64,000 nucleotides of DNA from Myxococcales bacterium (GTDB lineage: Bacteria; Myxococcota_A; Polyangia; Haliangiales; Haliangiaceae), in contig JAEUJY010000051.1 of NCBI GenBank assembly GCA_016794525.1, positions 1 through 64,000 of the forward strand, given 5' to 3'. Of this stretch, positions 19,782 through 47,539 are shown in pieces (positions within the stretch are counted from its first letter, which is position 1; every line of letters begins with the position of its first letter). The notes under the pieces are model-generated. The model was not told where the DNA came from. It ran no database searches and worked only from the letters and a program-made list of their open reading frames with translations. Made by a program: the position numbers and the translations under genes.

Positions 19782-20074
19782 AGGACCCGAGTCGATCCGT
19801 GCCAAGACGCGGCGGAGTTCTGGCGCCATCTCGTCGATAACAAACGCAAGCGCACGGTAATCGAGCCCGGGCGGAACCGCACGGAACCAACATCGACCGC
19901 GCAGCCCTGCAGCGATTCCAGCAGGGTTGCCCCGTGCGCCGTCCGTCGTGATCGTCCCCGGTGCGTGGGCTTCTTCTGGGTCGTGGCAAGGATTTGCAAC
20001 GGCTCCGGCGCCGCCGACGGTCGATGTGCGCTCGATCGCTTGTCCGGCGCTGACGCCTCGGGTACCAGAACACC
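19782..20074. other. Intergenic stretch, lower GC, no clear gene
   Basis: Nearly 300 bases separate the methyltransferase from the next lipoprotein gene. The base composition is less GC-rich than in the flanks. On the minus strand near 19800-19960 one frame reads protein-like text ([19 protein letters not shown]), but it has no start codon and no clear end, so at most it is a gene remnant. No tRNA, hairpin or strong promoter was seen. Confidence 0.3.
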
Positions 20075-26618: not shown

Positions 26619-29600
26619 GGCGAATCCTCGACGATGGCGCTCATCGATCGCCGACCGCGCGGGTCGACGATCTCGACGCGGTATGCCCAGCGCGCCGCCG
26701 GCGCGGGCACCAGGTCCTCGGTGGTGACCACGTAGGCTCCGGCGTCGACGACCGCGGGCAGCGCCGCGACCTCGAGTGAACCGTCGGCGCGAGTCACTGG
26801 CGTGGTCGCCGGGCTCCACCCCGGCACGCCGCGCTGGCGCCGCAGCAGCGTCACCGTGTAGTCGCGGCGCGGCAGACGCACGCGCACGCCGCGGCGGCTC
26901 GGATCCGGCGGCCGCGACACCGCCTCGACCGTCGCCGTCGCGGGCGGCTGACTCGAGGTGGCGCGCACCGTGACCGGCGACGAAGCCAGCGAGTGCACCC
27001 CGTCGGCGTTCACCGCGACCGCGCGATAGTAGTAGTCGACGTCGGCCAGCAGGTCGCTGTCGGTGAGGACCACCGCGCTGGCGCTGGCCGCGACGACGGC
27101 GCCCGGGCGCATCCGGCGCACGTCAGCGACCGCCACCGGGTCGCGCGTGCGGTACACGCGCAGCTCGGTGGCGCGACCGCTGGGGTCGGGCGCGATGCGC
27201 AGGGTCGCGCTGCGGTCACCACCGCGAGCCTCGACCACTCGCGGCGCATCCGGGACCTCGAGCAGTGGCACCGCCACGACCTCGAAGCGCAGCGGTTCCA
27301 CCGGCCACGCCGCGGCGATGCCGTGCGCCGACACCGCCAGGACGACGAACAGCGTCCAGCCGCGGTCGACGCCCCCGAGTTCGCCATCGTGGTGGGTGGC
27401 GGCGTCAACATACGGCGCCGCGTGATCGATCCGGAAGCTCGGGCGATGCTGGGTCGCGAGTCCCTGGAGCAGATCGACTCGCGCGGTGGCATCGAGCGCC
27501 TGGAAGACCGCATCATCGACCTGGCCGGCGGCCAGGAGCACCGCAGCCGGGCAGCGATACACCTGCACCGACCCGTGCGGCGGCACCACGAAGGCGATCC
27601 GCACCGAGGCCCGGCCCTGCGCATCGGCGTGGGTCGCGTAGCGCAGGGTGCCGTGCGCTGGTGGCGGCGGTGGCGGCGCCAGATCAGCCCGCGACGCGAT
27701 GGCGCACCGGGCCAGTCGGCTGGCGTTGCCGCTGCCATCGACCGCGCGGACGGTGGCGCTGAGCTGGGCGCGGCCGCGCCCGTCGAACGGCACCACCACC
27801 GGGCCAAGCTCGATCGTGACCCGGGTGGCACCGCCGCCACCGCTGACGACATGGGCCATGGTGACCGTCGCGGTCAAGCCGGGCGGGGCGAGGGTGGCAC
27901 CGCTCGGCCACGCCACGATCAGCGGCAGGGTCGTCGCGCCCGGTGCGGTCTCGAGCCGCCCCCACAGGGTCGGATCGTCGGTGTCAGCGAAGCCGGCGGC
28001 GCCCTGGCGCAGGTGCAGCTCGAATCGGGCCAGATCGGGTGCGGCGGCCGCGGCCCCGTCGCCCCAGTCGAAGCCGACGCGTAGTCGCGCCCAGGTCGGG
28101 GCCAGCTCCGGGGCGCCGACCAGCTCGGCGGCCAGCGCCGCTGGCGCCGGCGGCGGCACCTGATCGACGACCGCCCGAGACACGTCGGCGAATGGGCTCC
28201 AGCGTCCCCACAGATCCATGCCGCTCAGGCGCCAGGTGTACGTGCCATACGCGGGCACCGATCGGTCGTGGACCGCGACCCGCCCGCTGGTGGTCGCGGC
28301 TCGCGTCGGGACCAGGGGCACCCGGCGGCCCGACTCGTCATCGTTGGCATGCAGCGCGACGTCGTCGCCAGCCGCCGATCGGCGGCGCACTGCGAACATG
28401 ACCCGGGCCTGGGCCTCGAACAGGTTGCTGTCGTTGCCGCGGCAGCTGGCGATCACCTCGGCCTCGATCGGACGAGCGCCGGGGCGAGGCAGGATCTCGA
28501 CCTGCGGATCGAGCGGTGGGGTCAGCGGCGGCCGCGCCTCCTGGGCGATGTGGGTGGCGAGCGACACGCACGCTTGTGAGTTCGAGGCCAGCCGCGCCGA
28601 GCGCTCGAGCGAGTCGAGGTGCGGCAGCGCGGCGACCAGCGCGCGCGGCGCCTCGCGCAGGCCGCCCAGGAGCTGGCGCTGGAGCCAGCGGGTCGGGAAG
28701 CCGGCATCGACGGCGTAGTCCCACGGCGACGCGTCGGTCGCAGCGTCGGTGGTCATGAGCCCCAGGAGGCGGGCCACGCATGGATCGAGCGCGGCGCTGC
28801 GCAGCACGTCGTAGGGCGACAGCCGGATGGTGCCGCCGCCGAGGTCGTCGTCGGCGGGCACGGTCGCGATGGCGTCGTCGTAGACGAACATGGCCTGCGG
28901 CTCGCTGGCCGCCAGCTCGTGGTCGAGGAAGCCCTTCATGGCCGCGTGCATGCGCTGGTAGCCGACACCGAGATAGCGCTGGGACAGGTCGGCCGCGATC
29001 TCGGCCGGCGGCGCCGGCGGTGGCGGCATCGCCGCGGTATCCCACGGGGCCAGCGCGCGTGGCGGCGCTGCGAACAGACGGTTCTTGGCCACCTCTTCGC
29101 CGCCCTGTGCGGTCCACGTCGGGTAGATCGCCGGTTGATCGGTGAGCGGCAGATAGAAGCGATCGACCTCGGTCCATACCGGCGCCTGGGCGTAGGCGCG
29201 CGACGGCAGCCACTCGATGCGCGCCACCACGGCGTCGTGCCCCACCAGCTCGATGCGCTCGATGAGCCCGCCGTGCAAGAGCAACGTGTCGGCGACCCAC
29301 GGGTTGCGACGGGGCCAGGGCGGGAGCCGCAGCTCCTCGGGGCGCAGCCACGGCTCGCGGTCCCGGTACACTCGCTCGGTCACCGCCCCCAGTAGATCCT
29401 GGCGCTCGGTGCGGCGGATCGCCGACCGCAGCGTCGCAGGAACCAGGGCGTCGAGACCGCGGCCGATGGCCGCCCGATCCTGGTAGTGCCAGCTCCCGCG
29501 GCCGTTGGCGAAGGCGGTCGCGACCACACTGCCGGTCTCGACGCGGCGGAGAATCGTGAGGCGCACCCAGGCCGCGGGGTTGACCGACAGCGGCGGCGCC

Positions 29601-29992
29601 GGTGGCGTCGCCGACGGTCCCTCGAAGCCGAGGTCGAGCCACGCCGGTCGGGTGTCGAGGCGCAGGTACGGCACGCTGGCCGGCCCGGCGGCCTGGAACG
29701 CCGGTCCGCCGGCCTTGTCGACCGTGAGGCCGCTGGCGAAGCGATGGCGCACCGGGCCGATCGCCGCCTGGGTGAGTTCCTGGACGCGGCCGACGTCGCC
29801 GGCGGTGTAGATCGCCTTCCACCGCTGTGGCGTCGTCGGGCTGCCGCTGCGGCGCAGGCGGAAGCCCGAGCGTGGGAACCCTAGCCACCGGCCGAAGAAC
29901 CAGCGCAGGTGACGGCCATCGGCGATGTGACTGTCACCCTTGGTCCCCAGGCCCACGAGCTGCAGGAGCTCGGGATCGATCCAGTAGCTCAT
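26615..29992 (-). CDS. Giant protein with C-terminal fibronectin III-like domains
   Basis: This 1125-residue protein has no signal peptide (MSYWIDPELLQLVGLGTKGD). An N-terminal block has DGRHLRWFFGRWLGFPRSGF, a phrase that suggests a conserved folded module, then a long beta-rich region with many Trp and Pro. The last 500 residues look like consecutive FN3 modules (TYTWRLSGMDLWGRWSPF, PPPAPAALAAEL, VPDAPRVVEARGGDRSATL, DVDYYYRAVAVNADGVHS), which usually bind proteins or sugars. No catalytic motif is visible. ATG at 29990-29992 overlaps the stop of the upstream giant gene, and its own stop overlaps the PLD gene start. I infer a structural or adaptor part of the operon product. Confidence 0.75.
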   Translation of the reverse strand: MSYWIDPELLQLVGLGTKGDSHIADGRHLRWFFGRWLGFPRSGFRLRRSGSPTTPQRWKAIYTAGDVGRVQELTQAAIGPVRHRFASGLTVDKAGGPAFQAAGPASVPYLRLDTRPAWLDLGFEGPSATPPAPPLSVNPAAWVRLTILRRVETGSVVATAFANGRGSWHYQDRAAIGRGLDALVPATLRSAIRRTERQDLLGAVTERVYRDREPWLRPEELRLPPWPRRNPWVADTLLLHGGLIERIELVGHDAVVARIEWLPSRAYAQAPVWTEVDRFYLPLTDQPAIYPTWTAQGGEEVAKNRLFAAPPRALAPWDTAAMPPPPAPPAEIAADLSQRYLGVGYQRMHAAMKGFLDHELAASEPQAMFVYDDAIATVPADDDLGGGTIRLSPYDVLRSAALDPCVARLLGLMTTDAATDASPWDYAVDAGFPTRWLQRQLLGGLREAPRALVAALPHLDSLERSARLASNSQACVSLATHIAQEARPPLTPPLDPQVEILPRPGARPIEAEVIASCRGNDSNLFEAQARVMFAVRRRSAAGDDVALHANDDESGRRVPLVPTRAATTSGRVAVHDRSVPAYGTYTWRLSGMDLWGRWSPFADVSRAVVDQVPPPAPAALAAELVGAPELAPTWARLRVGFDWGDGAAAAAPDLARFELHLRQGAAGFADTDDPTLWGRLETAPGATTLPLIVAWPSGATLAPPGLTATVTMAHVVSGGGGATRVTIELGPVVVPFDGRGRAQLSATVRAVDGSGNASRLARCAIASRADLAPPPPPPAHGTLRYATHADAQGRASVRIAFVVPPHGSVQVYRCPAAVLLAAGQVDDAVFQALDATARVDLLQGLATQHRPSFRIDHAAPYVDAATHHDGELGGVDRGWTLFVVLAVSAHGIAAAWPVEPLRFEVVAVPLLEVPDAPRVVEARGGDRSATLRIAPDPSGRATELRVYRTRDPVAVADVRRMRPGAVVAASASAVVLTDSDLLADVDYYYRAVAVNADGVHSLASSPVTVRATSSQPPATATVEAVSRPPDPSRRGVRVRLPRRDYTVTLLRRQRGVPGWSPATTPVTRADGSLEVAALPAVVDAGAYVVTTEDLVPAPAARWAYRVEIVDPRGRRSMSAIVEDSP

Positions 29993-32900
29993 GGCGGCAG
30001 CTCCTCGGCCAGCACCGCCGGGGCGGTGGAAACCACGAGCGTCATCGTCGCCGACTCGGCGCCGTCGGACACCGTCAGGACCAGCGGCCCCACGGGCGCG
30101 ACGCTGACACCGGTGCCGGCCGTGAACAGCACCAGCGCCCGGCTGCGCGACAGCGCGGCGACGATCGTGATGGTCACGCCGCCGACCGCCGACGCAGCCG
30201 CGAGCTGCACGCCGTCGCGGAGCACGGGCTCGGGGCCATCGATCAGCAGGGCGATCACCGACCACGGTGCCCCGGCGCTGCTGCCCCGGTTCCACACGCG
30301 CACGATCTCCGGCTCGCGCGCCGGCGGTCGCGGCGGTAGCTCGAGCCGCTCGAGCAGCGCGGCGACGGCGGCATCGCTCACCTGCGGGACGGCCGGTCCC
30401 AGGGTGGCGACTTCGAGCGGTCGCTCCAGCAGCTCGTCGACGACCTGGTGCGCCGCCAGGTGGGCCGCGAGCGACGGCCAGCGCGAGGTGCGAAAGTGAA
30501 ACGTGTGCAAGCTCGGCAGGCTGGCCCAGTCGACGGTGGCCAGGTCGACGCTGCCGGTCGGATCGGGCACCGGTATCAGATCGCCGCGGTAGCCAGTGCC
30601 CAGCTCGAGCAGCGAGCCGAAGTGGGCGACACCGACGGCCCACAGCGACGCCACCCCCGGGTCGGTACAGCCGGTGCCGAGGACGACGTCGCGCCACAGC
30701 TCCTGGTACTCGGGCAGCTCGGCGCCATGGTCGGCCAGGAAGGCCAGGCGGTCGAACAGGTCCTGGCCGCGGTCATCGACCAGGCGCAGCACCAGGCGCC
30801 TGCCGAACTTGCGGTAGCGAGCGTCGGTGCGCGGGTCGAGGAAGTGCAGCGTGACGCCACGGTCGCGGTAGTGAGCCGGAGCGCCGTCGGCGGGCGTGGT
30901 GTCGACCTCCCAGGCCCCGGCATCGACGGCCTGGGCCCGAGTGCGCAGACGTTCGAGTGGTGGCTGATCAGCGGCCACGGTGCGGAAGCGGAAGCTGCGG
31001 ACCTCGGTGCCACCGACCGTCTCTTGGTTGCCGTGGACCTGAGACCAGCGGACGCGGGCGTCGAGCACGTAGGTGGTCCCCGGCTCGAGCAGCAAGGCGT
31101 CCGAGGTCGCGGCGTTATCGGCCAGGAGATCCGACCAGAGCTGCGACCACGCGCCGGCGGTCGCCAGGCTGTCCTGCCAGTCGCGCACGTGGTCTTCGTA
31201 CGTGAGGCACGCTTCGTAGATCTCGGACAGCGGTCGCAGCGGGGCCCCGTCCGGGAGCTGCTGCAGTGCCGCCATCTCGACGCGGGTCGACGGCACGGAG
31301 CAAACGAAGCGGACATCGTCGTAGCGATCGAGCACGTTGCCGACCACGACACCGCTGGCGTCCTCGAGCACGAGCGTGTCGCCATCGAAGAAGCGCGCGA
31401 TGACGCGGGCCCGTCGACCGTCGCGGTACGCCGACACCACCGCGCGGTGGGCCCGTCGCCAGTCCATTCGTAGCGAGGCCGACAGGATCGGTTCGGTCGC
31501 GGCGCCGGGCAGCGTCAGGCCGTAGGTGGTGGGCAGCAGGACGCCGCGCAGCAACTCCGGGGCCAGTCCTCCGCGCACGCAACCGGTGGCATCGCGCGCG
31601 AGCAGGCGTCGCAGGGTCTCGGCGCCCTCCGGAGCCGGGATGCAGCGGAGCGTCACCGGCGGATCGCCGGCGACTGCGATCCCATTCGGCAGCTCGCCGC
31701 CAGGGAGGCCGTCGAGCCGATAACACACCGGGCGCGGGCGGTCACCAGGGCAAGGATCGAAGGTCTCGGCGATGGAGCGGATGTAGTCGGCGGTTCCGCC
31801 GACGTACCGCGAGGTGAGCGGTCCATCGTAGGCGAAGAGCTGCAGGGTCTTGCGCGACCGCTGGCCTCCGGGCCCGGGTTCGCCAGTGTCGAACCAGAGC
31901 GCCGGCACGCCGGGCGTCACCGGGACCCGTGTGCCGTCGGGCTGCTCGACGGCGAGGGCCAGCTCGACGAGCTCGAAGGCGTAGCCCTTGTCGTCGCTCA
32001 TCGGCCAGTGGACCTGGGTGTCCACACCGTCGAGGTGGAAGGCGCCGACGGTGCCGGTGGCGTTGCGCGTCGGATAGGTGAAGGTCAGCGTGAACGCTGG
32101 ATCGATCGGGACCTCCGCCAGCGTCTGGCCCTCGACCACCTCGACCGGGGCGTGGCGGGCGCGAGGATGCAGGGTCAGCGCCGCGCAGGTGCGCCCCGGC
32201 GCGGGCAGGAGGCCGTCCGCGCCCTTCTGATAGCGGACCACCGCGTCGATGTCGGGCAACGGCCACGGCAGGCCGATCGAGACCGACACCGCCAGATCGA
32301 AGTACTTCGGGGCCGGGGTCATCCAGATCATCGACGCGTCGAGCCCGAGCTCGAAGCCCATGCCGAAGACTTTGAGGCCGACGGCGCCGGTCAGGTGCAG
32401 GAGGCCGCCGAAGAAGGTTCCATCGGTGGCATCGCCCGCGTCACCCGAGTTGCCGATCGACCCCAGCGCCAGGTGGACCTCGAACCCGGCGCGGAAGAAC
32501 AGCTTGATGCGGCCGCTTCCGAACTGCCAGTCGAAGCCCGCGGCGCCGCCGAGGACGATGGCCGTCCCGGGAATGTCGAGCTGCGCGTGGCCGCCGAGAT
32601 CCGCGATGTCGTTGCGATCGATCATCAGGTAGAACGACCCGTCGAACTTGCCGAGGACCTTCACCAGCACGCGCTTGGCCACCGGCATGTGCTCGCCGAT
32701 GTACAGGTGCAAGGCCTTGGGCGACTTGCTCGAATAGAAGTCGATGGGGACGTGGATGCGCAGCAGCTTCCCGTCCTCGGGCTTGGCGTAGTCGATGGTG
32801 ATCGACGCGGCGTAGATGTCGTGTTCCCAGTCGAACGCCAGCACCATGCCGAAGGCCGCGGCGCGGTCGTCGGTGAGTTTCGGTCGATCGGTCAACAGGT

Positions 32901-35154
32901 TCAGCGAGCCGGGGATGATCAACACGCCCGGCGCGTAGATGATCGCGGCCTTGGCGCTCCAGGCTCGACCACCGTCCGGCGCCGAGCCGAGGATGGCCCC
33001 GAAGGCCCCGGCCCAGCCACCGGCGTGGTGGCCCCACTTGAGGGCGCTGATGCGGTTGCGCGGCGGCAGCTCGCGATACCACTGGACGTAGTCGGGATGC
33101 TCGCGATCGGTGACCGCCGGCGCGGTGTTGCGGCCGAGCAGCATCGACAGCCCGTACAGCGCGATGGTCGGTGACAGCTTCCAGCCGTCGGCGTTGGTCA
33201 CCTCCAAGGACACCGCGGTCGACGACAGCCCGTCGCGAGTCTCCTCGCGTAGCGCCACCTCGAGATCCCACAGCCAGCTCGACCGCTCGTCGGCGCTGGC
33301 GGTGTAGTCCTTGCGCAGCAGGTAGGCCCGTCCGGTCCCCAGCCGCACCGGGTCGCCCCACTCGAGCTGGCCCTTGGCGTGCAGCAGCTGCGGCACCAGC
33401 ACCGAGAACGACAGCCCCGAGAACGACACGTGATCGAAGCTGCCGTCCTGGCGGAACCACAGTCGCACCACCGAGGGCACGACCGATACCGCGACCTCGC
33501 CCATCTCGGCGTTGACCTTGACCCCGACATCGACCCAGATGCCGCCATCCCAGCTGCCGAGGCCGGCCTTGGCGATCACCAGCGGCGAGCCGGCGATGAG
33601 GGTCTGGTCGCCGACGTCGAAGCTGATCCCGCTGCTAGGGTCAAACACGATGTCGAGGGCCTTGACCCCGGCGGCCTGACCGCCGATCGACGCGCGCAGG
33701 GTCAGTCCGCGGAGCTCGAGCCCGATCGGGCGCTCGGTCTTGATCGTGGGCACGATGATCGGCGGCCCCGGCAGATCGATGTCGATCGACAGGCGCAGCC
33801 GCAGATCGAGCGCCAGGTCGATGAACCGGACCGTGTGGCCGTTCACCATCTCGGTGAAGTAGCGGCCGGTGATCTTGATGAGGTCGATCTCCTCGATCCG
33901 CAGCGCGCCGCGGGTCTGCAACACCGACGCTGCGGCCAGGAGCCCGGCCACCAGTACCTGGCCGGGTGACAGCGCCGGGTCGGTCGTGAGCCCGGTCGCG
34001 AGCAGCACCGCGCCGCACAGGCCGCCCTCGATCGCGGCGATGGCGGAGCGGCCGAGATGTAGGAGCCCGTCAGTGTCGTCCTGGGTCGACGCCACCGCGA
34101 TGTCGAAGCCCAGCGAGTCAAGGGCCGACGCCATCGCCGGGTTGTGGCGAATCGTGAACAGGAAGCGCAGCGGGTGCCACGCTGCCCAGTCGCTGTTGAG
34201 GCGGTCCCAGTGCAGGGTGGTCTCGACCGTGCCGCGGATGAACACGCTCCGCTCCAGCTCGAAGCTGAAGGCGTCGAGCGCCAGCGCCCCGAACGGCGCG
34301 TCGGGTGGCAGCCTGGCCTCGACCACACCACTCACGCCGTCGCTGTCGATGATCGCGTCATGCAGTTCGATCTGCGACGGCAACACCGGCAGTAGGTTGT
34401 CCAGCCCCAGCAGACGCGCGCGGTTCAGGTACAAGCCACGCCATGACTCGTCGAAGTTCGGCCGGCTGAGCAGTTCGGGAATACCCTGGTCGCGGGATAG
34501 GTCGACCTTGAGGTCGATCACCTGCAGGCCGATGCCGGTCTCGCCGAACACGAACGGCGGCACGTTGACCGCCGCGCTGGGATCGAGCGCTATCGAGATG
34601 CCGCGCTCGGTGTCGAACACCAGGGACCCCGATGGCAAGCTGACCTCGACCCGCCGGGGTGGCTCGAAGCGTTCGATGCCGACCACTTGCCCTGCGTCCT
34701 CGATCAGCTCGCCAAGGTGCAGGCCAGGGGGCAGACGCAGGCGAGCGGTCAGATCGTGGATCGCCAGGCGGAAGCCAAGGCATGGTCCGTCAGCCTCCCA
34801 GAACACGCGCACGGCGCCGTGCTCGCCGTCGATGACCGTCGGCTCGACGCCGAAGTACTCTTCGCCGTGACCGATGATGAGGCTGGCGATCGACAGCCTG
34901 GCGGCCGCCACCTCGAATCGGACGATGGTCTCGCCGGCGCTGCCACTGCCAAGGACCAGTCCGCCCCACTCGCCGCCGATGACCACCTCGTCGAGCACCA
35001 CCGCGTCGCCGGTTACGATGAACGTCTGATCGTTCCAGCGATCGCGGAGGTCGCGCACCCCGATGTACGGATAGACCGTACCGATGACCGGGATGTGCCT
35101 GACAAACGACGGCAACGGTAGCAACACCGACAGCGGCACGAAGTAGTCGCCCAA
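29989..35154 (-). CDS. Giant 1721-residue beta-repeat protein, first gene of the operon
   Basis: This protein has no signal peptide (MGDYFVPLSVLLPLPSFV). Residues 1-950 are an unusually long series of amphipathic beta strands with phrases such as LRLRLSIDIDLPGPPIIVPT, LTLRASIGGQAAGVKALDIVF, WVDVGVKVNAEMGEVAVSVV and HAQLDIPGTAIVLGGAAGF. The pattern is reminiscent of AsmA/TamB or bridge-like lipid-transfer grooves or of DUF6603-type proteins, but I cannot assign a family. Residues 980-1721 hold Ig/FN3-like pieces and helical inserts (YEACLTYEDHVRDWQDSL). The start is TTG at 35152-35154 with a GTGAGG ribosome site 5 bases before it. It is transcribed from the promoter at 35178-35206 and coupled by ATGA to the next gene. 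Function unknown. Confidence 0.75.
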   Translation of the reverse strand: MGDYFVPLSVLLPLPSFVRHIPVIGTVYPYIGVRDLRDRWNDQTFIVTGDAVVLDEVVIGGEWGGLVLGSGSAGETIVRFEVAAARLSIASLIIGHGEEYFGVEPTVIDGEHGAVRVFWEADGPCLGFRLAIHDLTARLRLPPGLHLGELIEDAGQVVGIERFEPPRRVEVSLPSGSLVFDTERGISIALDPSAAVNVPPFVFGETGIGLQVIDLKVDLSRDQGIPELLSRPNFDESWRGLYLNRARLLGLDNLLPVLPSQIELHDAIIDSDGVSGVVEARLPPDAPFGALALDAFSFELERSVFIRGTVETTLHWDRLNSDWAAWHPLRFLFTIRHNPAMASALDSLGFDIAVASTQDDTDGLLHLGRSAIAAIEGGLCGAVLLATGLTTDPALSPGQVLVAGLLAAASVLQTRGALRIEEIDLIKITGRYFTEMVNGHTVRFIDLALDLRLRLSIDIDLPGPPIIVPTIKTERPIGLELRGLTLRASIGGQAAGVKALDIVFDPSSGISFDVGDQTLIAGSPLVIAKAGLGSWDGGIWVDVGVKVNAEMGEVAVSVVPSVVRLWFRQDGSFDHVSFSGLSFSVLVPQLLHAKGQLEWGDPVRLGTGRAYLLRKDYTASADERSSWLWDLEVALREETRDGLSSTAVSLEVTNADGWKLSPTIALYGLSMLLGRNTAPAVTDREHPDYVQWYRELPPRNRISALKWGHHAGGWAGAFGAILGSAPDGGRAWSAKAAIIYAPGVLIIPGSLNLLTDRPKLTDDRAAAFGMVLAFDWEHDIYAASITIDYAKPEDGKLLRIHVPIDFYSSKSPKALHLYIGEHMPVAKRVLVKVLGKFDGSFYLMIDRNDIADLGGHAQLDIPGTAIVLGGAAGFDWQFGSGRIKLFFRAGFEVHLALGSIGNSGDAGDATDGTFFGGLLHLTGAVGLKVFGMGFELGLDASMIWMTPAPKYFDLAVSVSIGLPWPLPDIDAVVRYQKGADGLLPAPGRTCAALTLHPRARHAPVEVVEGQTLAEVPIDPAFTLTFTYPTRNATGTVGAFHLDGVDTQVHWPMSDDKGYAFELVELALAVEQPDGTRVPVTPGVPALWFDTGEPGPGGQRSRKTLQLFAYDGPLTSRYVGGTADYIRSIAETFDPCPGDRPRPVCYRLDGLPGGELPNGIAVAGDPPVTLRCIPAPEGAETLRRLLARDATGCVRGGLAPELLRGVLLPTTYGLTLPGAATEPILSASLRMDWRRAHRAVVSAYRDGRRARVIARFFDGDTLVLEDASGVVVGNVLDRYDDVRFVCSVPSTRVEMAALQQLPDGAPLRPLSEIYEACLTYEDHVRDWQDSLATAGAWSQLWSDLLADNAATSDALLLEPGTTYVLDARVRWSQVHGNQETVGGTEVRSFRFRTVAADQPPLERLRTRAQAVDAGAWEVDTTPADGAPAHYRDRGVTLHFLDPRTDARYRKFGRRLVLRLVDDRGQDLFDRLAFLADHGAELPEYQELWRDVVLGTGCTDPGVASLWAVGVAHFGSLLELGTGYRGDLIPVPDPTGSVDLATVDWASLPSLHTFHFRTSRWPSLAAHLAAHQVVDELLERPLEVATLGPAVPQVSDAAVAALLERLELPPRPPAREPEIVRVWNRGSSAGAPWSVIALLIDGPEPVLRDGVQLAAASAVGGVTITIVAALSRSRALVLFTAGTGVSVAPVGPLVLTVSDGAESATMTLVVSTAPAVLAEELPP

Positions 35155-35177
35155 GCCAACCTCACTTCCGTCGGTTC

Positions 35178-35206
35178 ATTCGATCACGGCAACTCGACGG
35201 TATCAA
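35178..35206 (-). promoter_or_regulatory. Sigma70-like promoter of the giant operon
   Basis: On the minus strand TTGATA (35201-35206, one mismatch to TTGACA), a 17-base spacer and TCGAAT (35178-35183, four of six to TATAAT) lie just before the first giant gene. The predicted start point near 35171 leaves a short leader of about 17 bases holding the ribosome site GTGAGG. Confidence 0.5.
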
Positions 35207-35207
35207 G

Positions 35208-35238
35208 CGAGTCGCCCGAATATCCGAGATTCGACTCG
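35208..35238. promoter_or_regulatory. Inverted repeat upstream of the giant-operon promoter
   Basis: The arms CGAGTCG (35208-35214) and CGACTCG (35232-35238) are separated by 17 bases and end directly upstream of the -35 box. A related direct repeat ACTCGACGG occurs at 35192-35200 (in the promoter spacer) and 35234-35242. Their position suits an activator or repressor site; this is an inference from symmetry. Confidence 0.35.
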
Positions 35239-35351
35239 ACGGCTTCGCGCGCCAGGCCCGCTCGCGTTCGGCGCATTAGCCGGCCGAATCCTGGCTCCGC
35301 GGACGCGGGGCGTGACCGCGAGGCCTCAGCTCGATTGCCGATGACAACTAG

Positions 35352-35448
35352 CGGAAGCGCACGGGAATCGAACCCGCCGTGCCGCCGCTCGCGCGGAGCA
35401 CCACCGGCTTTGAAGGCCGAGCCGCGCACCAGCCGCGGATGCGCTTCC
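35352..35448 (-). tRNA. selC: tRNA-Sec (anticodon UCA)
   Basis: The minus strand folds as a selenocysteine tRNA. It has an 8-bp acceptor stem (GGAAGCGC with GCGCTTCC, discriminator G), the anticodon loop CTTCAAA with anticodon TCA (plus-strand tga at 35411-35413), a long variable arm and the T-arm GGGTTCGATTCCC. The 97-base length and the GGAAG start and CTTCCG end match bacterial selC. CCA is not encoded. It implies that the organism inserts selenocysteine at UGA; selA, selB and selD must lie elsewhere. Its 3' end faces the giant operon, the side on which islands insert at tRNA genes. Confidence 0.93.
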
Positions 35449-35506: not shown

Positions 35507-36067
35507 TCAGCGGCTGGCGGCGGCGGGCCACGCGCACAGGAAGCCGTCGGCGCCGTCGGGCGGCAGCATGTCGGCGTTGGCGGTGAGCTGGTAGCCGTCG
35601 CGCAAGAACAGGTGGGTGCGCGGCTCGCCGCGGCCGTTGCGGACCCAGTACGGGCCTCGATACGGGATGTCGACGGGCGCGCCGGAGCTCCAGCACAGGC
35701 GCTCCGGGTCGTCGGTGGCGTCGGCGCACGCGCCGCCGCCGATCCACACGGCGTCGAGGTCGATCGCGGTGCGAACCTCGGCGCCGACCGCCTCGAGCTC
35801 GGCGGTGGTCGCGAGCTGCGCGAGGGCGGCGCCGCTGGCTTCGCAGGCCTGTGCGGCGGCCTCCCAGGCGGCGCCGGGCGCTTCCCACAGCTGGTAGCGC
35901 CGGCCGAGCACCTCGAACGGCGGCTGCGCGACGCCGACGCTGACGGCGGCATCGGGGCCCGCGGGCTCGACGACCGGCGGGGCTGGCGTCGCGGCGGGGC
36001 TCGCCGCGCGCGGGCACCCGACCAGGCCGGGCGCGAGCGCGCCCAGGACGACCGCGACGAGACGCAT
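35507..36067 (-). CDS. Lipoprotein with C-type-lectin-like domain
   Basis: This 186-residue protein starts at ATG 36065-36067, giving a lipoprotein signal (RLVAVVLGALAPGLVGC, lipobox LVGC). After a Pro/Ala linker (residues 20-45), a C-type-lectin-like fold follows: RRYQLWEAPGAAWEAAAQAC (the W-A-C strand-helix), LAQLATTAELEAV, the core VWIGGGAC and the end GADGFLCAW. Calcium-binding EPN/WND residues are not evident, so carbohydrate binding is uncertain; many bacterial members bind proteins. It is exported and anchored to a membrane. The longer frame to 36250 has no sensible signal and was rejected. Confidence 0.78.
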   Translation of the reverse strand: MRLVAVVLGALAPGLVGCPRAASPAATPAPPVVEPAGPDAAVSVGVAQPPFEVLGRRYQLWEAPGAAWEAAAQACEASGAALAQLATTAELEAVGAEVRTAIDLDAVWIGGGACADATDDPERLCWSSGAPVDIPYRGPYWVRNGRGEPRTHLFLRDGYQLTANADMLPPDGADGFLCAWPAAASR

Positions 36068-36191
36068 CCAGCGAGCGAACCACGCGAGCGCGATCGGCGC
36101 AAACCCGCGCGGCGGCCCGTCGCCGGCAGCGCGGGTGTCAGGCGGGTCACAATGGGCCGGCGGCGCGGAGGCGGTGGTGCATACTGGACGG

Positions 36192-37436
36192 ATGGTGCGT
36201 CGACGTTCGAGCCGCGCGTGGGAGGCCCTGGCGGCCGCCGCGCTGCTCAACGCGGGCGCGGTGCTGGTGCTCGATCACGTCGTGCCGGCGATGGGGCGGC
36301 TGAGCTGGCCGACGTTCGCGGCGCCCGGGCCGCCGGTGCCGACGGCGCCGAGCCTGACGTCGGCGGGGCTGCAGGGCTTCGGCGTCGTGACCGTGATCCC
36401 GCCGGCGATCCCGCTCGAGGCGATCCTCGGCACCGGCGACGACGCGGCGGGGCACGGGCGGGCGGCGCGGCCGTCGAGCGCCGATCTGCCCGGCGACCGC
36501 GCGGCCGATCGCGGCGGCGGCGCCGAGGGCGGCGCCGACACCTGGGCCGATCGCCGGGATCGCGCCGACGACGCGGCGCTGCGCAAGCAGGTGTGGACGT
36601 CGGATCAGGCGTACCTGGCGCCGCGCAGCCCCGGCGATCGGACCGCGCGGTCGCCCGAGGCGATCGCCCGCGCGCCCGAGGCGGCGTACGGCGATCGCGC
36701 GCCGCAGCGGCTGGCGCGCGCCGGCGAGGACCAGGCCCGGGTGGGCGACGCGACCGGGGCCGGGGCGCCGGGGCTGCCGACCAGCGTCGGCGTCGACGAC
36801 GCGCGCGCCGGGACGCCGGGCGCGACCGCGCCGGCCCGGGTCGACGGCGCGACGGCGACGGCGCGCGACGCGGCGTACGTCGATCGCGGCGAGCGCGCGG
36901 TCGACGTGGCCCGGCGCGGCGCGACCGCCGACGATCGCGCGGTGGCGGCGTCGTCGGATCAGCGGCGCCCCGATCCGTTCGACCTCACGCCGCCGCGGGC
37001 CGGCGGCACCAGCGGCGAGGGCGTGCGCGGCGTGGCCGGGCCGGGCGTCGCGCCCGACGGCTGGGGCCAGGGCACCGCGGCGTCGCGGGCCGAGTCGCCG
37101 GCGGGCGACGACGGCGCGCCGACCTACGCGTCGCGCCGCGACCCGTACTTCCTCGAGTTGTTCCGCCGGCTCGATCAGCGCATCGAGTACCCGCACGAGC
37201 TGGCGCTGGCGATGACCTCGGGCCGGGTGGTCGCGTCGATGGTGCTGCGCGCCGACGGCACCTTCGCGGAGATCGCGCTCCACGCCGGCAGCGGCTACGA
37301 GGCGTTCGATCGCGAGGTCACCGACGCGCTCAAGGCGGTGGGCAAGCTGCCGCCGGTGCCGGCGGCGCTGCTCGGCGGGCGCGCCGCGCTGCGGGTGCGC
37401 ATCCCGTACACGTTCAAGAACCCGATGATCCAGTAG
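36192..37436 (+). CDS. TonB-family C-terminal domain protein
   Basis: This 414-residue protein has one N-terminal TM helix (residues 12-32 after a basic MVRRRSSR), a long low-complexity Ala/Asp/Arg/Gly spacer through residue 310 (periplasm-spanning, probably extended) and a C-terminal TonB-like fold (DPYFLELFRRLDQRIEYP, GRVVASMVLRADGTFAEI, VGKLPPVPAALLGG, IPYTFKNP). TonB proteins transfer proton-motive energy to outer-membrane receptors, but no exbB/exbD or receptor is adjacent, and an acidic/basic spacer is unusual compared with the Pro-Lys spacer of classic TonB. In myxobacteria such domains also occur in gliding or envelope proteins. The 3' end overlaps the convergent membrane-protein gene by 23 bases. 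Confidence 0.8.
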   Translation: MVRRRSSRAWEALAAAALLNAGAVLVLDHVVPAMGRLSWPTFAAPGPPVPTAPSLTSAGLQGFGVVTVIPPAIPLEAILGTGDDAAGHGRAARPSSADLPGDRAADRGGGAEGGADTWADRRDRADDAALRKQVWTSDQAYLAPRSPGDRTARSPEAIARAPEAAYGDRAPQRLARAGEDQARVGDATGAGAPGLPTSVGVDDARAGTPGATAPARVDGATATARDAAYVDRGERAVDVARRGATADDRAVAASSDQRRPDPFDLTPPRAGGTSGEGVRGVAGPGVAPDGWGQGTAASRAESPAGDDGAPTYASRRDPYFLELFRRLDQRIEYPHELALAMTSGRVVASMVLRADGTFAEIALHAGSGYEAFDREVTDALKAVGKLPPVPAALLGGRAALRVRIPYTFKNPMIQ

Positions 37437-37956
37437 CGCGGTCGGCGCCCGGGCGCAGCGGCCACGCCAGCCACGCCGCCGACCCCAGCACCAGCGCCCA
37501 GCCGAGCAGGCGGAACACGGCGGCGACGGTGTGGTCGGCGTCGAGCGCGTGCCAGCGCGACAGGATGTGGAACCAGTCGTGCTCGCCGCCGCCGACCAGC
37601 GGCAGCGCCTGGGCGCGGGCGTCGGCGGCGTAGCGCGCGATGTTTCCGCAGTTCTGCCCGAACCACGCGAGGCCGACCGCGGTGCCGATCGGCTCGCGTC
37701 GCCAGAAGAACGTCGCGGCCGCGACCGCCGGGAAGGTGAGCTGGCCGAGCGTCCCGCCGTACAGCGCCAGCGTCGATCCGAACAGGCCGTAGATCTGGTG
37801 GCCGGCCTCGTGGAACGCCAGGTTGGCGTCGTCGAGCGGGCGCAGGTAGGCGTCGTCGTCGACGGCCATCCACAGCGCCAGCAGGCCGAGCCCGATCAGC
37901 GCGGCGATCGTGTGGCTGCGCGGCACGGGCCGCCACGGCATCAGCTCGAGCTCCAC
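37414..37956 (-). CDS. Membrane protein with HEAGH motif
   Basis: This 180-residue protein has about four membrane helices (residues 16-32, 58-82 in part, 90-105, 150-168). Between the first two it has the sequence NLAFHEAGHQIYGLFG, a canonical HExxH zinc-protease signature in membrane context like site-2 proteases and their relatives, with further histidines and Asp near the C-terminus (EHDWFHIL, SRWHALDADH) that could complete a metal site. It resembles a family of small uncharacterised bacterial proteins, so peptidase activity is a possibility and not established. It converges on and overlaps the TonB-family gene. Confidence 0.7.
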   Translation of the reverse strand: MELELMPWRPVPRSHTIAALIGLGLLALWMAVDDDAYLRPLDDANLAFHEAGHQIYGLFGSTLALYGGTLGQLTFPAVAAATFFWRREPIGTAVGLAWFGQNCGNIARYAADARAQALPLVGGGEHDWFHILSRWHALDADHTVAAVFRLLGWALVLGSAAWLAWPLRPGADRATGSSGS

Positions 37957-38007
37957 CGGTCGAGGATACGCTTCCCGGTGGCCGACGCGCGTGCGATCAT
38001 GGCGGTC

Positions 38008-39486
38008 ATGCCGCGCGGGCCGACGCCGTTGCTACTCACGCTGGCGCTCGGGTGCGGCGGCGACGGCAGCGGCGGCGGGCCCGACGCCGCGCCGCCGAGC
38101 GCGACCTGCGAGGCGCCGGCGCCGGCCGCCACCGCGACGCCGACCACGGTCGTCGGCGACGGCACCCCGGCGAGCTGCACCGAGACCGCGCTGCGGGCGG
38201 CGGCGGCGACCGGCGGCGTGATCACGTTCGCCTGCGGCGCGGCGCCGCACACGATCGCCGTGGCCGCGGCGATCGTCGTCACCGCCGAGAGCGTGATCGA
38301 CGGCGGCGGGCTGATCACGCTCGACGGCGGCGGCGCGACGCGGATCCTGTACCTCGACTCGGGCTACGACCAGGCGACGCCGCGGCTGACCGTGCAGCGG
38401 CTGGCGTTCCGCCGCGGCCAGGCCCCGGCCACCGGCGCCGACACCGCGCAGGGCGGCGGCGCGATCTACCGCGACGGCGGCAGCCTGACGGTCATCGACT
38501 GCACGTTCGACGACAACCACGCGCCGGCCACCGGGCAGGACGTCGCCGGCGGCGCGATCTACGGCTTCGGCGGCGGCGACACGATCGTCGCCGGCAGCAC
38601 GTTCACCGGCAACTCGGCCAGCGACGGCGGCGCGATCGGCAGCCTCAACGCCGATCTGACGATCGTCAACAGCCGCTTCACCGGCAACGCCGCCACCGGC
38701 ACCGGCGGTAACCCCGGCGACGGCGGGGCCGGCGGGGCGCTGTACATGGACGGCCGCGACGAGCGGACCTCGCTGTGCGGGGTGACGATCGCCGACAACA
38801 CCGCCGGCGCGATCGGCGGCGGCGGGTTCCGCGTGTCCAACGATCACACCGGCAGCTTCGCGATGGATCGCACCACCGTCGACCACAACGCCGTCACCGC
38901 GAGCGGCGAGGGCAACGCCGGCGGCCTGTACCTCGAGGGCCTGGCGCTGGCGATCTCCGCCAGCACGATCTCGCGCAACCAGGCGTTCTACAACGGCGGC
39001 ATCTGGATCAACGCGTGCGCCGCCGAGCTGACCAACGTCACGATCGCCGGCAACGTCGCCACCGGCTCTAACGGCGGCGGCGTGTGGCTGGGCAACGGCC
39101 CCACCGGCACGATGCGCAACTGCACGATCGCCGACAACCACGCCACCGCCGACGGCCAGGTGGCGGGCGCGATCTTCGGCGGCGGGATGACGCTGGTGAA
39201 CACGATCGTCGCCGGCAACAGCGCGATGTACCGGCCGAGCTGCGACGGCGCGCGCGCCGACGGCAGCGGCAACCTGCAGTGGCCCGACGGCGCCTTGTGC
39301 ACGACCGCGCCGCGGGTCGCCGATCCGTTGCTCGGCGCGCTGGGCGACAACGGCGGGCCGACCGCGACGATGGCCCCGGCCGCCGGCAGCCCGGCGATCG
39401 GCCTGGGCACTGGCTGTCCGCCGACCGATCAGCGCGGCCGGCCGCGCGGCGAGCCGTGCACCGCGGGCGCGGTCGAGGCGCCGTGA
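38008..39486 (+). CDS. Right-handed beta-helix lipoprotein (choice-of-anchor Q)
   Basis: This 492-residue protein opens with a short lipoprotein signal (PTPLLLTLALGCGG). The body is a parallel beta-helix of polymorphic outer-membrane type: repeated units like GGAIYRDGGSLTVIDCTF, GGGDTIVAGSTFTGNSA, GGALYMDGRDE and GGIWINACAAELTNVTI with many Asn/Gly turns. The C-terminus (GSPAIGLGTGCPPTDQRGRPRGEPCTAGAVE) is the choice-of-anchor Q signature, in which NSPAID and DQRGxPRP are usual. It should be exposed at the cell surface, and enzymatic or adhesive activity is unproven. The second ATG (38008) was chosen over 37999. The stop overlaps the GTG of the next lipoprotein gene. Confidence 0.85.
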   Translation: MPRGPTPLLLTLALGCGGDGSGGGPDAAPPSATCEAPAPAATATPTTVVGDGTPASCTETALRAAAATGGVITFACGAAPHTIAVAAAIVVTAESVIDGGGLITLDGGGATRILYLDSGYDQATPRLTVQRLAFRRGQAPATGADTAQGGGAIYRDGGSLTVIDCTFDDNHAPATGQDVAGGAIYGFGGGDTIVAGSTFTGNSASDGGAIGSLNADLTIVNSRFTGNAATGTGGNPGDGGAGGALYMDGRDERTSLCGVTIADNTAGAIGGGGFRVSNDHTGSFAMDRTTVDHNAVTASGEGNAGGLYLEGLALAISASTISRNQAFYNGGIWINACAAELTNVTIAGNVATGSNGGGVWLGNGPTGTMRNCTIADNHATADGQVAGAIFGGGMTLVNTIVAGNSAMYRPSCDGARADGSGNLQWPDGALCTTAPRVADPLLGALGDNGGPTATMAPAAGSPAIGLGTGCPPTDQRGRPRGEPCTAGAVEAP

Positions 39487-40832
39487 CGGTCGCGGCGCGG
39501 GGCGCGCTGGCGCTGGCCGCGCTGCTCGCCGCGTGCGGTGGCGACGACGCCGCCGATCCCGACGCCGGCCTGGCGCCCGACGGCGGTCCGCCGACCGGGC
39601 CAACCCGCTACCCCGCCGACGTCGAGGCCGCGCCGGTGACCGACGCCGTGGTCGCGCGGATGCGGGCGATCGCCGCCGCCGGTCCCGGGCAGCGCGACGA
39701 CGTGTTCATGAAGGTCGGCGCGTCGGGCACCGTCAGCACCAGCTTCCTGTATTGCCTCGCCGGCGCCGCGCACCAGCCGGCGTACACGATCGATCTCGCC
39801 GGGCGCGACGCGCTCGGCGCCACGCTCGACCACTTCCGCGGCGGGCTGATCGGCGCCGACACGCCGTTCGATCGCGCGACGCTGGCCGCCGAGGTCGGGC
39901 GCACGGCGGCGTGGGCGATCACCGGCGCGCCGTCGCCGCTCGCCGCCGAGCTGGCCGCGACCACGCCGCGGTTCGCGTTCGTCAACTACGGCACCAACGA
40001 CATGAACGCCGCCGCGACCTACGGCGCCGCGCTGGGCCCGTTCTGGGAGCGGATGGGCACGCTGCTCGATCAGCTCGAGGCCGCCGGCGTGGTGCCGATC
40101 CTCACCGGGCTCAACCCGCGCGGCGACGATCCCGCCGCGGCGCGCTGGGTGCCCACCTGGGACAGCGTCACCCGCGCGCTGGCCGAGGCGCGCCAGCTGC
40201 CGTACCTGAGCCTGTGGGTGGCGTCGGCGCCGCTGGCCGATCAGGGCCTGCTCGCCGACGGGCTCCACGGCAACGTCTACGTCGTCGGCGGCCGCGCCCA
40301 GCCGTGCGTGTTCACGCCGACCGGGCTGGCCTTCAACTACGACGTCCGCAACCTGCGCTCGCTCGAACTGCTCGACGCCGCGCGCCGCACCGTGCTCGCC
40401 GGCGAGGCCGCCCCGGGCGCGCCGCCGCTGCCCCCGGTGATCGGCGCCGGCACCGACGCCGATCCGCTGATCGTCGATCGCCTGCCGTTCACGCACACCG
40501 GCGACACCGTCGGCGGTCAGGCCGCGCGCGCCGGCTACCCCGGCTGCGACCAGGGCCAGGACGAGTCGGGGCCCGAGCGGGTCTACGCGCTGCACCTCGC
40601 CGCGCCCGCCGCGCTGCGCGTGATCGCGCTCGATCGCGCGGGCGTCGACGTCGACGTCCACCTGCTCACCGCCGGCGCGTGCGTCGAGCGCGCCGATCGT
40701 CTGCTCGATCGGACGCTGCCCGCCGGCGATCACCGGATCGTCGTCGACTCGTTCGTCACCGCCGCCGGCGCCCAGGCCGGCCCGTACACGCTGGTCATCC
40801 AGCCGTGCGCCGCCGGCGATCCGGACTGCTGA
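39483..40832 (+). CDS. SGNH/GDSL-like lipoprotein hydrolase
   Basis: This 449-residue protein has a lipoprotein signal (ALALAALLAACGGD, lipobox LAAC), an Asp-rich linker and an SGNH-hydrolase-like domain: KVGASGTVSTSF (block I nucleophile region), FVNYGTNDMN (block III GxND) and ADGLHGN (block V DxxH). The C-terminal 110 residues form a beta domain (GQDESGPERVYALHLAAPA ... DRTLPAGDHRIVVDSF) like pre-peptidase or carbohydrate-binding modules. A surface esterase acting on polysaccharide or lipid is likely; the substrate is unknown. The GTG start at 39483 overlaps the stop of the beta-helix gene (GTGA), so the two are coupled. Confidence 0.8.
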   Translation: MTVAARGALALAALLAACGGDDAADPDAGLAPDGGPPTGPTRYPADVEAAPVTDAVVARMRAIAAAGPGQRDDVFMKVGASGTVSTSFLYCLAGAAHQPAYTIDLAGRDALGATLDHFRGGLIGADTPFDRATLAAEVGRTAAWAITGAPSPLAAELAATTPRFAFVNYGTNDMNAAATYGAALGPFWERMGTLLDQLEAAGVVPILTGLNPRGDDPAAARWVPTWDSVTRALAEARQLPYLSLWVASAPLADQGLLADGLHGNVYVVGGRAQPCVFTPTGLAFNYDVRNLRSLELLDAARRTVLAGEAAPGAPPLPPVIGAGTDADPLIVDRLPFTHTGDTVGGQAARAGYPGCDQGQDESGPERVYALHLAAPAALRVIALDRAGVDVDVHLLTAGACVERADRLLDRTLPAGDHRIVVDSFVTAAGAQAGPYTLVIQPCAAGDPDC

Positions 40833-40849
40833 GGCTCCGGCGGCGCCTC
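40831..40849. terminator. Hairpin between convergent genes
   Basis: GAGGCTCC, a 3-base loop and GGCGCCTC form an 8-bp stem with one mismatch. It starts in the stop codon of the SGNH gene and ends 8 bases before the gcvH stop. It could end transcription from both sides. There is no U-tract. Confidence 0.35.
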
Positions 40850-40856
40850 GCTCGGA

Positions 40857-41231
40857 TCAAGCCAGGGTCGCGCTGTACGCGTCGGCCCCGAGCAGCCCGT
40901 CGATCTGGCCGGCGTCGCTGGGCGTGATCTCGACCATCCACGCGGCGTAGCAGTCGGCGTTGACCGCCTCGGGCGCGTCCTTGAGGGCGCCGTTGACCTT
41001 GGTGACGGTGCCCGAGATCGGGGCGTACAGGTCGGACACCGACTTGACGCTCTCGATGGTGCCGAACCGCGCGCCCTTCTCGACGACGGTGCCGACCGCG
41101 GGCAGCTCGACCATCGTGATGTCGCCGAGCTGCTCGACGGCGAAGGCGGTGATGCCGACCGCGCAGGTCGCGCCGGGGCGCAGCCACTCGTGGTCGGCGG
41201 TGTAGCGGAGGTCGCTCGGGACGTTGGACAT
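40857..41231 (-). CDS. gcvH: Glycine cleavage system H protein
   Basis: This 124-residue protein matches GcvH over its full length: LRYTADHEWLRP, VGITAFAVEQLGDITMVELP, and the lipoylation site GTIESVKSVSDLYAP with Lys63 as the lipoyl carrier, then NGALKDAPEAVNADCY. It shuttles the aminomethyl group from the P protein (glycine decarboxylase) to the T protein. The gene follows gcvT with a 62-base gap on the same strand. gcvP is not downstream (the next gene is convergent), so it must lie elsewhere. Confidence 0.97.
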   Translation of the reverse strand: MSNVPSDLRYTADHEWLRPGATCAVGITAFAVEQLGDITMVELPAVGTVVEKGARFGTIESVKSVSDLYAPISGTVTKVNGALKDAPEAVNADCYAAWMVEITPSDAGQIDGLLGADAYSATLA

Positions 41232-41293
41232 CGGGTTCTCGCTGGCCTGAAGGTTCGATGCGGGTGGGTGGCGACGGGTGTCGATGCGGCGCG

Positions 41294-42415
41294 CTAGGCG
41301 CGCTTGTAGAACTTGCCCTTGACCACCGTGGCGGCGACGTCCTTGCCGCGGCAGTCGAGCGTGAGCTGGGTGCCCTCGGCGGCGTAGCTCGGCGGCAGGT
41401 AGGCCAGGCCGATCGCGCCGGTGACCGAGATGCCGGGGCCGCCGCTGGTGACGGTGCCGATGACCTGCGCGTCGGCGGGGCGGCTGCGATCGACGACCGC
41501 GTAGCCGTGGCGGGCGATCGCGCGGTCCTCGATGCGGAAGCCGGTGAGCACGCGGGTGAGGCCGTTGGCCTTCTGCGCGACCAGCGCGGCGCGGCCGAGG
41601 AAGTCGCCGCCGGCCTTGACCCACGGCCGGTCGAGCTTGACCGCCCAGCCCAGGCCGGCCTCGAGCGGCGAGGTGGTGTCGTCGAGGTCGTTGCCGTACA
41701 GCGGCAGCCGCGACTCGAGCCGCAGGCTGTCGCGCGAGCCCAGCCCGCACGGCTGGACGCCGGCGGCGATGATCGCCTGCCACAGCGCCGGCGCGTCCGC
41801 GTTCTTGCACGCCAGCTCGAAGCCGTCCTCGCCGGTGTAGCCGGTGCGGCCCGCGGTGACGGCGACGCCGGCGACGGTGGTGTCGGTGAAGCAGAACGTC
41901 CCGACCTTGGCCAGCGTGCCGCCGGCCAGCCCGTCGAGGATCGCCGTGGCCTTGGGGCCCTGCACGGCGATCAGCGCGGTGGCGTCGGAGACGTCCTCGA
42001 GATCGACGATGCCGCCGATCTGCTCGCGCATCCACGCCACGTCCTTGTGGCGGTTCGACGCGTTGATGATGACGAAGTACTCGTCCTCGGCGCGCTTGTA
42101 GAAGATGCAGTCGTCGACGATGCCGCCGTCGGGCCGGCACAAGAGCGTGTAGACCGCCTTGCCCGGCGCGACGCCGCCGACGTCGTTGGTGGTCAGGCGC
42201 TGCACCGCCTCGGTGGCGCGCGGGCCGCGCAGGAACGCCTCGCCCATGTGGCACACGTCGAACACGCCGGCGGCCTCGCGGACCGCCTTGTGCTCCTTGA
42301 TCGTGCCGGCGGGATAGGACACCGGCATGTCCCAGCCGCCGAAGTCGATCATGCGTGCGCCGAGGGCGCGGTGGGCGTCGTTGAGCGGAGTTCGAAGGCC
42401 TGCCACGGCGCGCAT
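41294..42415 (-). CDS. gcvT: Aminomethyltransferase, glycine cleavage T protein
   Basis: This 373-residue protein is a typical Gcv[30 protein letters not shown], the folate-binding [13 protein letters not shown] (variant of the more common VSHMGE), [64 protein letters not shown] and a C-terminal barrel ending in KGKFYKRA. It transfers the methylene group from lipoylated GcvH to tetrahydrofolate and releases ammonia. It precedes gcvH and follows the AttH/CrtC-like gene by 21 bases, so the three may be one transcript. The short gap leaves no room for a glycine riboswitch. Confidence 0.97.
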
Positions 42416-42436
42416 CCTACAACACGCGGCCGGCCG

Positions 42437-43456: not shown

Positions 43457-43569
43457 GGCGCTCCCTCACGCATCGCCGGAAGCTAACCGATTCCGGCAGC
43501 GCTGGCGATGCGTCGACCGGTCGCGATCGCGCGTTGACGGGCGCCGCGCGGCGCGGGCACGATGTCCCG

Positions 43570-44373: not shown

Positions 44374-44386
44374 CGCGCGGCACGGG

Positions 44387-44392
44387 TAGAGT
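44387..44392 (+). promoter_or_regulatory. TAGAGT -10-like box, leaderless type
   Basis: TAGAGT ends 7 bases before the ATG of the NUDIX gene, in the context GGTAGAGTCG. The same ten bases and the same spacing precede the TTG of the propeller kinase (minus strand, 16662-16673 region). Transcription should begin at or beside the start codon. Confidence 0.42.
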
Positions 44393-44399
44393 CGCGGTC

Positions 44400-46123: not shown

Positions 46124-46125
46124 CG

Positions 46126-47532
<1,407 letters not shown>

Positions 47533-47539
47533 GGCCGCC

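Follow-up and report, generated by a model that had tools for sequence, protein, structure and literature searches.

A 64,000-nt stretch of DNA from a Myxococcota bacterium (GenBank assembly GCA_016794525.1, contig JAEUJY010000051.1, positions 1 to 64,000; here, the window) contains a candidate selC, the gene for the selenocysteine (Sec) tRNA. This raises the question as to whether the organism reads UGA as Sec and, if it does, in which proteins. In the bacterial route to Sec, seryl-tRNA synthetase (SerRS) charges tRNA-Sec, SelA and the selenophosphate made by SelD turn the serine into Sec, and SelB brings Sec-tRNA to a UGA that is followed by a Sec insertion sequence (SECIS) hairpin. We are confident that the window carries the working selC of a Myxococcota bacterium that uses UGA as Sec, and that an undescribed selenoprotein family, here named C9, is one of its clients. 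The case is computational and is made up of a conserved UGA, purifying selection on its two sides, covarying hairpins, co-occurrence with the Sec machinery, and a confident one-domain model of the protein. The source bacterium would decode UGA by the usual route, using SerRS, SelA, SelD, and SelB, and the C9 gene product would be a client of this machinery with a single Sec at the conserved UGA.

The tRNA-Sec gene of the window

The earlier note on this DNA had identified selC from an 8-bp acceptor stem, a UCA anticodon, and a long variable arm, and had named a tRNA caller as a check. ARAGORN does score a tRNA-SeC there (anticodon tca, 35351-35448, minus strand), and Rfam model RF01852 matches 35353-35448 on the same strand over its full length (model positions 1-91; 72.9 bits versus a gathering score of 47; E = 5.1e-13). 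The sequence itself agrees and the identification stands. Read by eye, the acceptor stem pairs GGAAGCGC with GCGCUUCC over 8 bp, the anticodon loop is CUUCAAA with UCA at 35413-35411, and the variable arm is long. Because the discriminator G lies at 35352, we take 35352-35448 as the correct extent of the gene, whose parts are as follows.

35352..35448, minus strand: selC, tRNA-Sec gene, anticodon UCA (ARAGORN, Rfam RF01852, and sequence reading)
35441..35448, minus strand: 5' strand of the selC acceptor stem, GGAAGCGC, 8 bp (sequence reading)
35353..35360, minus strand: 3' strand of the selC acceptor stem, GCGCTTCC (sequence reading)
35411..35413, minus strand: selC anticodon TCA, which reads UGA (ARAGORN position 36 and sequence)
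35352..35352, minus strand: selC discriminator base G, with no CCA encoded after it (sequence)

GCTA directly follows the 3' end, and hence CCA is not encoded. Otherwise the gene is ordinary, sharing with the bacterial tRNA-Sec of RF01852 the 8-bp acceptor, the UCA anticodon, the long variable arm, and the discriminator G. It is also single-copy, being the sole RF01852 match above the cut-off in the source assembly (9.8 Mb, 177 contigs, 96.7% complete, Myxococcota); the six remaining matches at E <= 1e-3 score 31.5-36.9 bits. This selC is ordinary, and it most likely functions. In a comparison set of 56 genomes, consisting of the source genome and 55 relatives, tRNA-Sec was found above the cut-off in 39.

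A conserved in-frame UGA in an undescribed gene

A scan for TGA read-through, using codon scores learned from the genome, covered 1.87 Mb (19% of the genome) as 100 stretches plus the window. Eleven candidates came through the last filter; inspection by eye dismissed ten as weak or as gene boundaries, and only the remaining one was checked in relatives. It is a 117-codon gene on the minus strand of contig C9 of the source genome (G000 contig C9, 10805-11155; L105:10805-11155), laid out as 63 codons, a TGA, 53 codons, and then a stop. The scan, which is weak for Sec near the N terminus, yielded no selenoprotein inside the window, and it did not list SelD, in which the 19 codons before the TGA include several low-scoring ones. 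No paralogue of the C9 gene was found at E < 1 outside the family loci in 3.25 Mb of sequence.

Relatives of the C9 gene come from three overlapping sets. In the 56 genomes, matches occur in 21 (the source and 20 of the 55 relatives, whose proteins are 45-82% identical to that of the source), each with exactly one in-frame TGA, and 35 genomes have none. A wide search of one genome per species, queried with a pair of peptide patterns, one having Cys in place of Sec, gave 96 relatives; in the best 80, which were kept, there is a stop at the Sec column in 80 of 80, and every one is TGA. Finally, 377 genomes of the phylum were searched by profile, and 42 gave a match, with 31 strong matches (E <= 6.8e-26) that all have a TGA inside; TGA occupies the Sec column in 30 of the 30 strong loci read, some of which are the same genes as in the 56-genome set. 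Across the three sets (21, 80, and 30), TGA thus stands at one codon in all 131 sequences read, and none of these strong homologues has Cys there. From the UGA onward, 99 of the 131 are distinct over 66 nt.

Selection was examined in a gapped codon alignment of 78 rows, in which one column only is TGA in every row. Of the 3003 pairs, 2996 have a nonsynonymous divergence (pN) below the synonymous divergence (pS) across the 45 columns downstream of the UGA, as do 2882 across the 35 columns upstream, and purifying selection acts on the gene both before and after the UGA. This alignment replaces an earlier ungapped comparison upstream; downstream, the ungapped test agrees (3477 of 3486 pairs). Codon choice is skewed as well: GTC encodes the Val seven codons after the UGA in 73 of 79 cases, versus 147 of 352 at other nearby Val codons (nominal p = 7e-18, among related sequences).

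These results bear on the simplest alternative, that the UGA is an ordinary stop and the downstream part a pseudogene tail or a separate short gene. Gene finders would read a stop here, and GTG, a possible start, lies four codons after the UGA in 34 of 84 sequences. An ordinary stop does not, however, account for the constancy of TGA across the 131 sequences while terminal stops vary (TGA in 57, TAG in 15, and TAA in 8 of the best 80 of 96), nor for the selection on both sides. In the predicted structure, moreover, one confident domain would span the UGA, with strands ending just before it and starting just after it. We therefore regard an ordinary stop as highly improbable; the UGA of the C9 gene is presumably read as Sec in the cell.

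Two types of candidate SECIS hairpin

Downstream of the UGA, the sequences fall into two types: A-type, with an Ala codon after the key Val, and S-type, with a Ser codon there (one sequence with neither, L296, and duplicates were left out). The 40 A-type sequences form a 6-bp stem with a mostly GGUC loop that begins 17 nt after the UGA. Paired bases fill 98.3% of cells, both sides of a pair have changed in 16 cases versus 2.9 in shuffles (0 of 500), and RNAalifold gives -10.5 versus -3.5 (standard deviation 1.1) over 100 codon shuffles. In the 39 S-type sequences, which include the source genome, the hairpin is GGUCUC-loop-GGGACC, with a CGUGU loop beginning 23 nt after the UGA; again 98.3% of cells pair, and both-side changes number 5 versus 0.6 in shuffles (0 of 500).

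Published limits for bacterial SECIS elements (PMC13188914, section 5) are a loop of 3-9 nt with a G in its first two bases, a stem of 4-16 bp, and a loop lying 16-37 nt after the UGA, and both hairpin types satisfy these limits of loop, stem, and spacing. Taking the energy of the apical hairpin alone rather than of the whole element, -7.5 kcal/mol is reached by 56 of 99 observed sequences, versus 19% of synonymous resamples, and by 48 of 56 A-type sequences. RNAalifold found no structure when all sequences were pooled, which we think reflects the mixing of two hairpin types.

Association with the Sec machinery

The C9 family keeps company with the Sec machinery. Of the 80 family holders from the wide search, 50 were tried for selB, and 47 of these have a match above the cut-off. 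Within the 56-genome set, selB or selC accompanies the family in all 21 of its holders, and the family is absent from all 11 genomes that lack both genes (nominal p = 0.0028, relatedness uncorrected). This distribution speaks to a second alternative, in which near-cognate suppression reads the UGA as Trp, Cys, or another residue independently of the Sec pathway. Read-through alone would also predict purifying selection downstream. Such suppression is, however, difficult to reconcile with a UGA that is replaced by TGG or a Cys codon in 0 of 131 sequences, with covarying hairpins of SECIS geometry, or with the co-occurrence just described, and we give it very little credence relative to decoding as Sec.

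A profile search of the source assembly located selA on contig C159 (536 bits versus a cut-off of 268) and selD on contig C137 (308 bits versus 125). The selD gene has one in-frame TGA, at MTAEARAALRLTAYARGGG[U]AAKL (context TAYARGGG[U]AAKLRL), the same position as in the SelD selenoprotein (TIGR00476), from which nothing notable sets it apart; its UAAK fits UxxK, the SelD motif in Table 1 of PMC13188914. The earlier note had proposed that the organism uses UGA as Sec and that genes with in-frame UGA codons would be cut short or missed, and it had pointed to selA, selB, selD, and open reading frames continuing through TGA. Sec use is supported by selC, selA, the selD gene with its TGA, and the C9 gene; the prediction of truncated or missed genes is borne out by SelD and by the undescribed C9 gene, the one candidate that the read-through scan yielded. 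Of the machinery, selA and selD are present and selB was not found above the cut-off.

Several results weigh against a Sec-decoding organism with C9 as its client. In the ungapped test, 3 of the 13 pairs listed for the 20 codons before the UGA have pN above pS. The S-type hairpin is the less secure: its RNAalifold value of -7.5 is hardly better than the -6.7 of within-column codon shuffles, 253 of 500 shuffles equal or exceed its count of pair types, and sliding the register by +3, as a control, raises the covariation score (0.153 versus 0.094), although 45.7% of cells then pair. The source genome's own apical hairpin, at -6.6 kcal/mol, is weaker than the published -7.5, a value that just 7 of 42 S-type sequences reach. 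Three of the 50 family-holding genomes (G070, G087, and G104, all metagenome-assembled genomes [MAGs]) show no selB, and the C9 family is missing from 24 of the 45 genomes that carry selB or selC. The phylum search also gave 12 weak rows (E 2.8e-7 to 9.4e-6), of which a single one contains TGA; the other 11, in 10 genomes, are stop-free and may be distant relatives without Sec. Last, the source assembly has no selB above the cut-off.

The best selB-search matches in the assembly are EF-Tu on contig C41 (194 bits) and an EF-Tu-like protein on C102 (147.5 bits). The latter, of 388 aa (L009:1216-2382), was considered as a hidden selB and rejected: it has three EF-Tu domains and no winged-helix match, and it is 53% identical to the C41 EF-Tu. 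A selB adjoining selA was likewise dismissed, as selA has a sigma-70-like gene on one side and its contig has no selB match.

Among the 55 relatives, selB is present in 38, including 5 of 6 same-genus genomes. The selB region was retrieved from ten relatives, nine of which remained after one (L066) gave no gene calls. An AMP-binding-type gene lies beside selB in all nine (with one intervening gene in L069), and a SerRS cluster sits farther out in the same stretch in four; the Pfam names of these genes are taken from the L061 copies only. For the AMP-binding neighbor, the source assembly holds only paralogues (best 33% identity), and for a second conserved neighbor it holds no match. It also has no SerRS above the cut-off (best 23 bits), in a search that 13 of 14 control genomes pass, and SerRS is indispensable to any cell. 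Because the two neighbors and SerRS are absent along with selB, the whole block appears to be missing from the assembly, and the absence of selB is probably an assembly gap rather than a loss.

The same evidence addresses a third alternative, that selC is a relic in a selB-less lineage and the source organism no longer makes selenoproteins. The lack of selB in so complete an assembly is what such a history would leave. A relic would not explain why an indispensable synthetase and two selB neighbors are gone too, and it sits poorly with selB in five of six same-genus genomes and with in-frame TGA codons retained in both SelD and the C9 gene. There is, in our view, only a slight chance that selC is such a relic.

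A predicted single-domain protein with Sec in a turn

C9 proteins are roughly 100-140 residues long and share the core VQDE[FY]THDVV...LVFDTT[U]LGGVxAVSVWDHRPTADELL...GWxPTPTxTxDGxxVLGHAAC. From the 78-row alignment, AlphaFold predicts one compact alpha/beta domain (predicted local distance difference test score [pLDDT] 96; predicted template modeling score [pTM] 0.88) in the order two helices, four strands, a helix, a small strand pair, and a short helix. Sec, residue 64, lies in the turn that joins strands three and four of the model. Invariant in the 78 rows are Q39, D40, E41, D45, D61, U64, G66, P78, L84, R87, W92, G102, and G107, and the nearly invariant residues include T43, H44, T63, and W74.

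Judging from the strand order of the model, the QDExxHD turn and the TTU turn would meet at one edge of the sheet, in an arrangement resembling an active site. Sec, Q39, D40, E41, D45, D61, H44, and T63 could then form a putative redox or metal-binding active site, and C110, a C-terminal Cys that is common but not invariant, may resolve the Sec site. Redox or metal-site chemistry at Sec is the likeliest function that we infer for the family.

Known folds offered little guidance. Foldseek returned nothing at E <= 0.001 against PDB and BFVD, a thioredoxin-like or GPX-like fold included, and the family profile matched no PDB sequence. VIA-align gave Z scores of 6.0 for OsmE, 4.9 for BLIP, and 4.5 for BamE-like structures, each over part of the predicted domain; a Z below 8 may mean a mere common arrangement, there is no sequence link between these structures and C9, and the OsmE match was not accepted as a fold assignment.

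Relation to known selenoproteins and distribution of the family

A fourth alternative is that the C9 gene belongs to a divergent subfamily of a selenoprotein family already described. Small redox proteins make up most of the known selenoproteins, and the UxxG motif fits members that read ULGG. Table 1 of PMC13188914 (2026) lists 119 selenoprotein families and subfamilies; its motifs are too short to decide, some entries have none, and the UxxG fit by itself says little. Among the listed families that have NCBIfam or Pfam models, which are those our search covered (families with only cd- or PTHR entries lie outside it), none matches the source protein, and at E <= 0.1 any one of them hits at most one of the 78 members. 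The same holds for NCBIfam as a whole and for Pfam as a whole, neither of which has a family matching more than 1 of 78 members at that threshold. Together with the empty PDB profile and Foldseek searches, this makes membership in a described family unlikely, and we continue to treat C9 as a family of its own.

We found no published description of it in titles and abstract openings on myxobacterial, Acidobacteria, or Gemmatimonadetes selenoproteins, a search to which subscription papers and preprints were mostly outside scope and which does not reach the supplementary candidate table of PMC4807772 (Planctomycetes selenoproteins).

Sec use in this phylum is not itself new. We take Anaeromyxobacter to belong to the Myxococcota. 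A table in PMC1794560 credits Anaeromyxobacter dehalogenans with 11 selenoproteins, and Sec use in Myxococcota is in that sense already in print.

What sets C9 apart is the lack of a Cys version among its strong homologues. PMC13188914 states that Cys homologues are known for "nearly all" selenoproteins, the new families of PMC12013277 all come with Cys homologues, and those of PMC2398784 are aligned with theirs. The orphan selenoproteins DG, DW, DF, and GOS_A to GOS_C of the latter two papers resemble C9 in having one Sec and an unassigned function, but they are reported to have Cys homologues, whereas C9 has none in 131 sequences and no NCBIfam match. Reliance on Sec/Cys pairs may be why earlier searches missed it. 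We put at about even the chances of a broader proposal: that C9 is an ancient enzyme family, confined to Sec, whose chemistry in Myxococcota, Acidobacteriota, Gemmatimonadota, and Planctomycetota requires selenium, with no Cys replacement in strong homologues, and that Sec/Cys-pair searches therefore passed it over even in Myxococcus xanthus. With no Cys version in records of four phyla, cultured myxobacteria among them, the family would be an exception invisible to such searches. In M. xanthus it would probably be a further client of the Sec machinery, and it is a candidate enzyme for asking about selenium dependence.

Titled holders of the family include Myxococcus xanthus AM003, Corallococcus, Pyxidicoccus, Hyalangium, two Nannocystis isolates (one a complete genome), and Paraliomyxa, and further holders are MAGs labelled Acidobacteriota, Gemmatimonadota, and Planctomycetota. 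On a tree, phylum labels cluster (7 changes versus a shuffled 18.4, with none of 200 shuffles as low), with 33 of 77 inner branches open and bootstrap support unsettled; Myxococcota and Acidobacteriota do not form single clades. No neighboring gene cluster recurs at more than 7 of 80 family loci. One record titled Comamonas sp. KCTC 72670 (L228, BNCN01000010.1) has a C9-family gene nested among Myxococcus sequences and is perhaps mislabelled or contaminated. The weak stop-free matches of the phylum search lie in genomes G247, G431, G348, G135, G352, G349, G274, G233, G284, and G439.

Surroundings of selC

One further feature of the window relates to the tRNA gene by sequence.

19836..19869, minus strand: imperfect copy (28/34) of the selC 3' end and flanking bases, a possible old attachment site, outside the tRNA (sequence comparison)

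A 25-base piece of this copy matches with 3 mismatches, where shuffles expect 0 such matches, and the copy and selC are 15.5 kb apart, with the copy on the 3' side of the tRNA. GC content is about 0.69-0.74 across roughly 17000-35350 and mostly 0.73-0.81 elsewhere, with 0.71 again near 51-54 kb. The stretch at about 17000-35350 may be an old island at selC; no integrase was found among its larger frames, the ones scanned against Pfam. Just 3' of selC, a frame of 1716 codons (29989-35139) has no Pfam match. On the 5' side, gene order over 35507-47541 is largely kept in a same-genus genome (G006, L084), with which the window has no gene cluster in common on the 3' side.

ARAGORN also called a 99-base tRNA-Asp at 61218-61316, which has no Rfam match at the gathering score and is probably false. 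Among relatives, one contig (G019:C163, L090) carries two identical copies of selC 7 kb apart, at 3030-3125 and 10027-10122, and in another genome (G048; L092 and L093) selC lies at the ends of two contigs.
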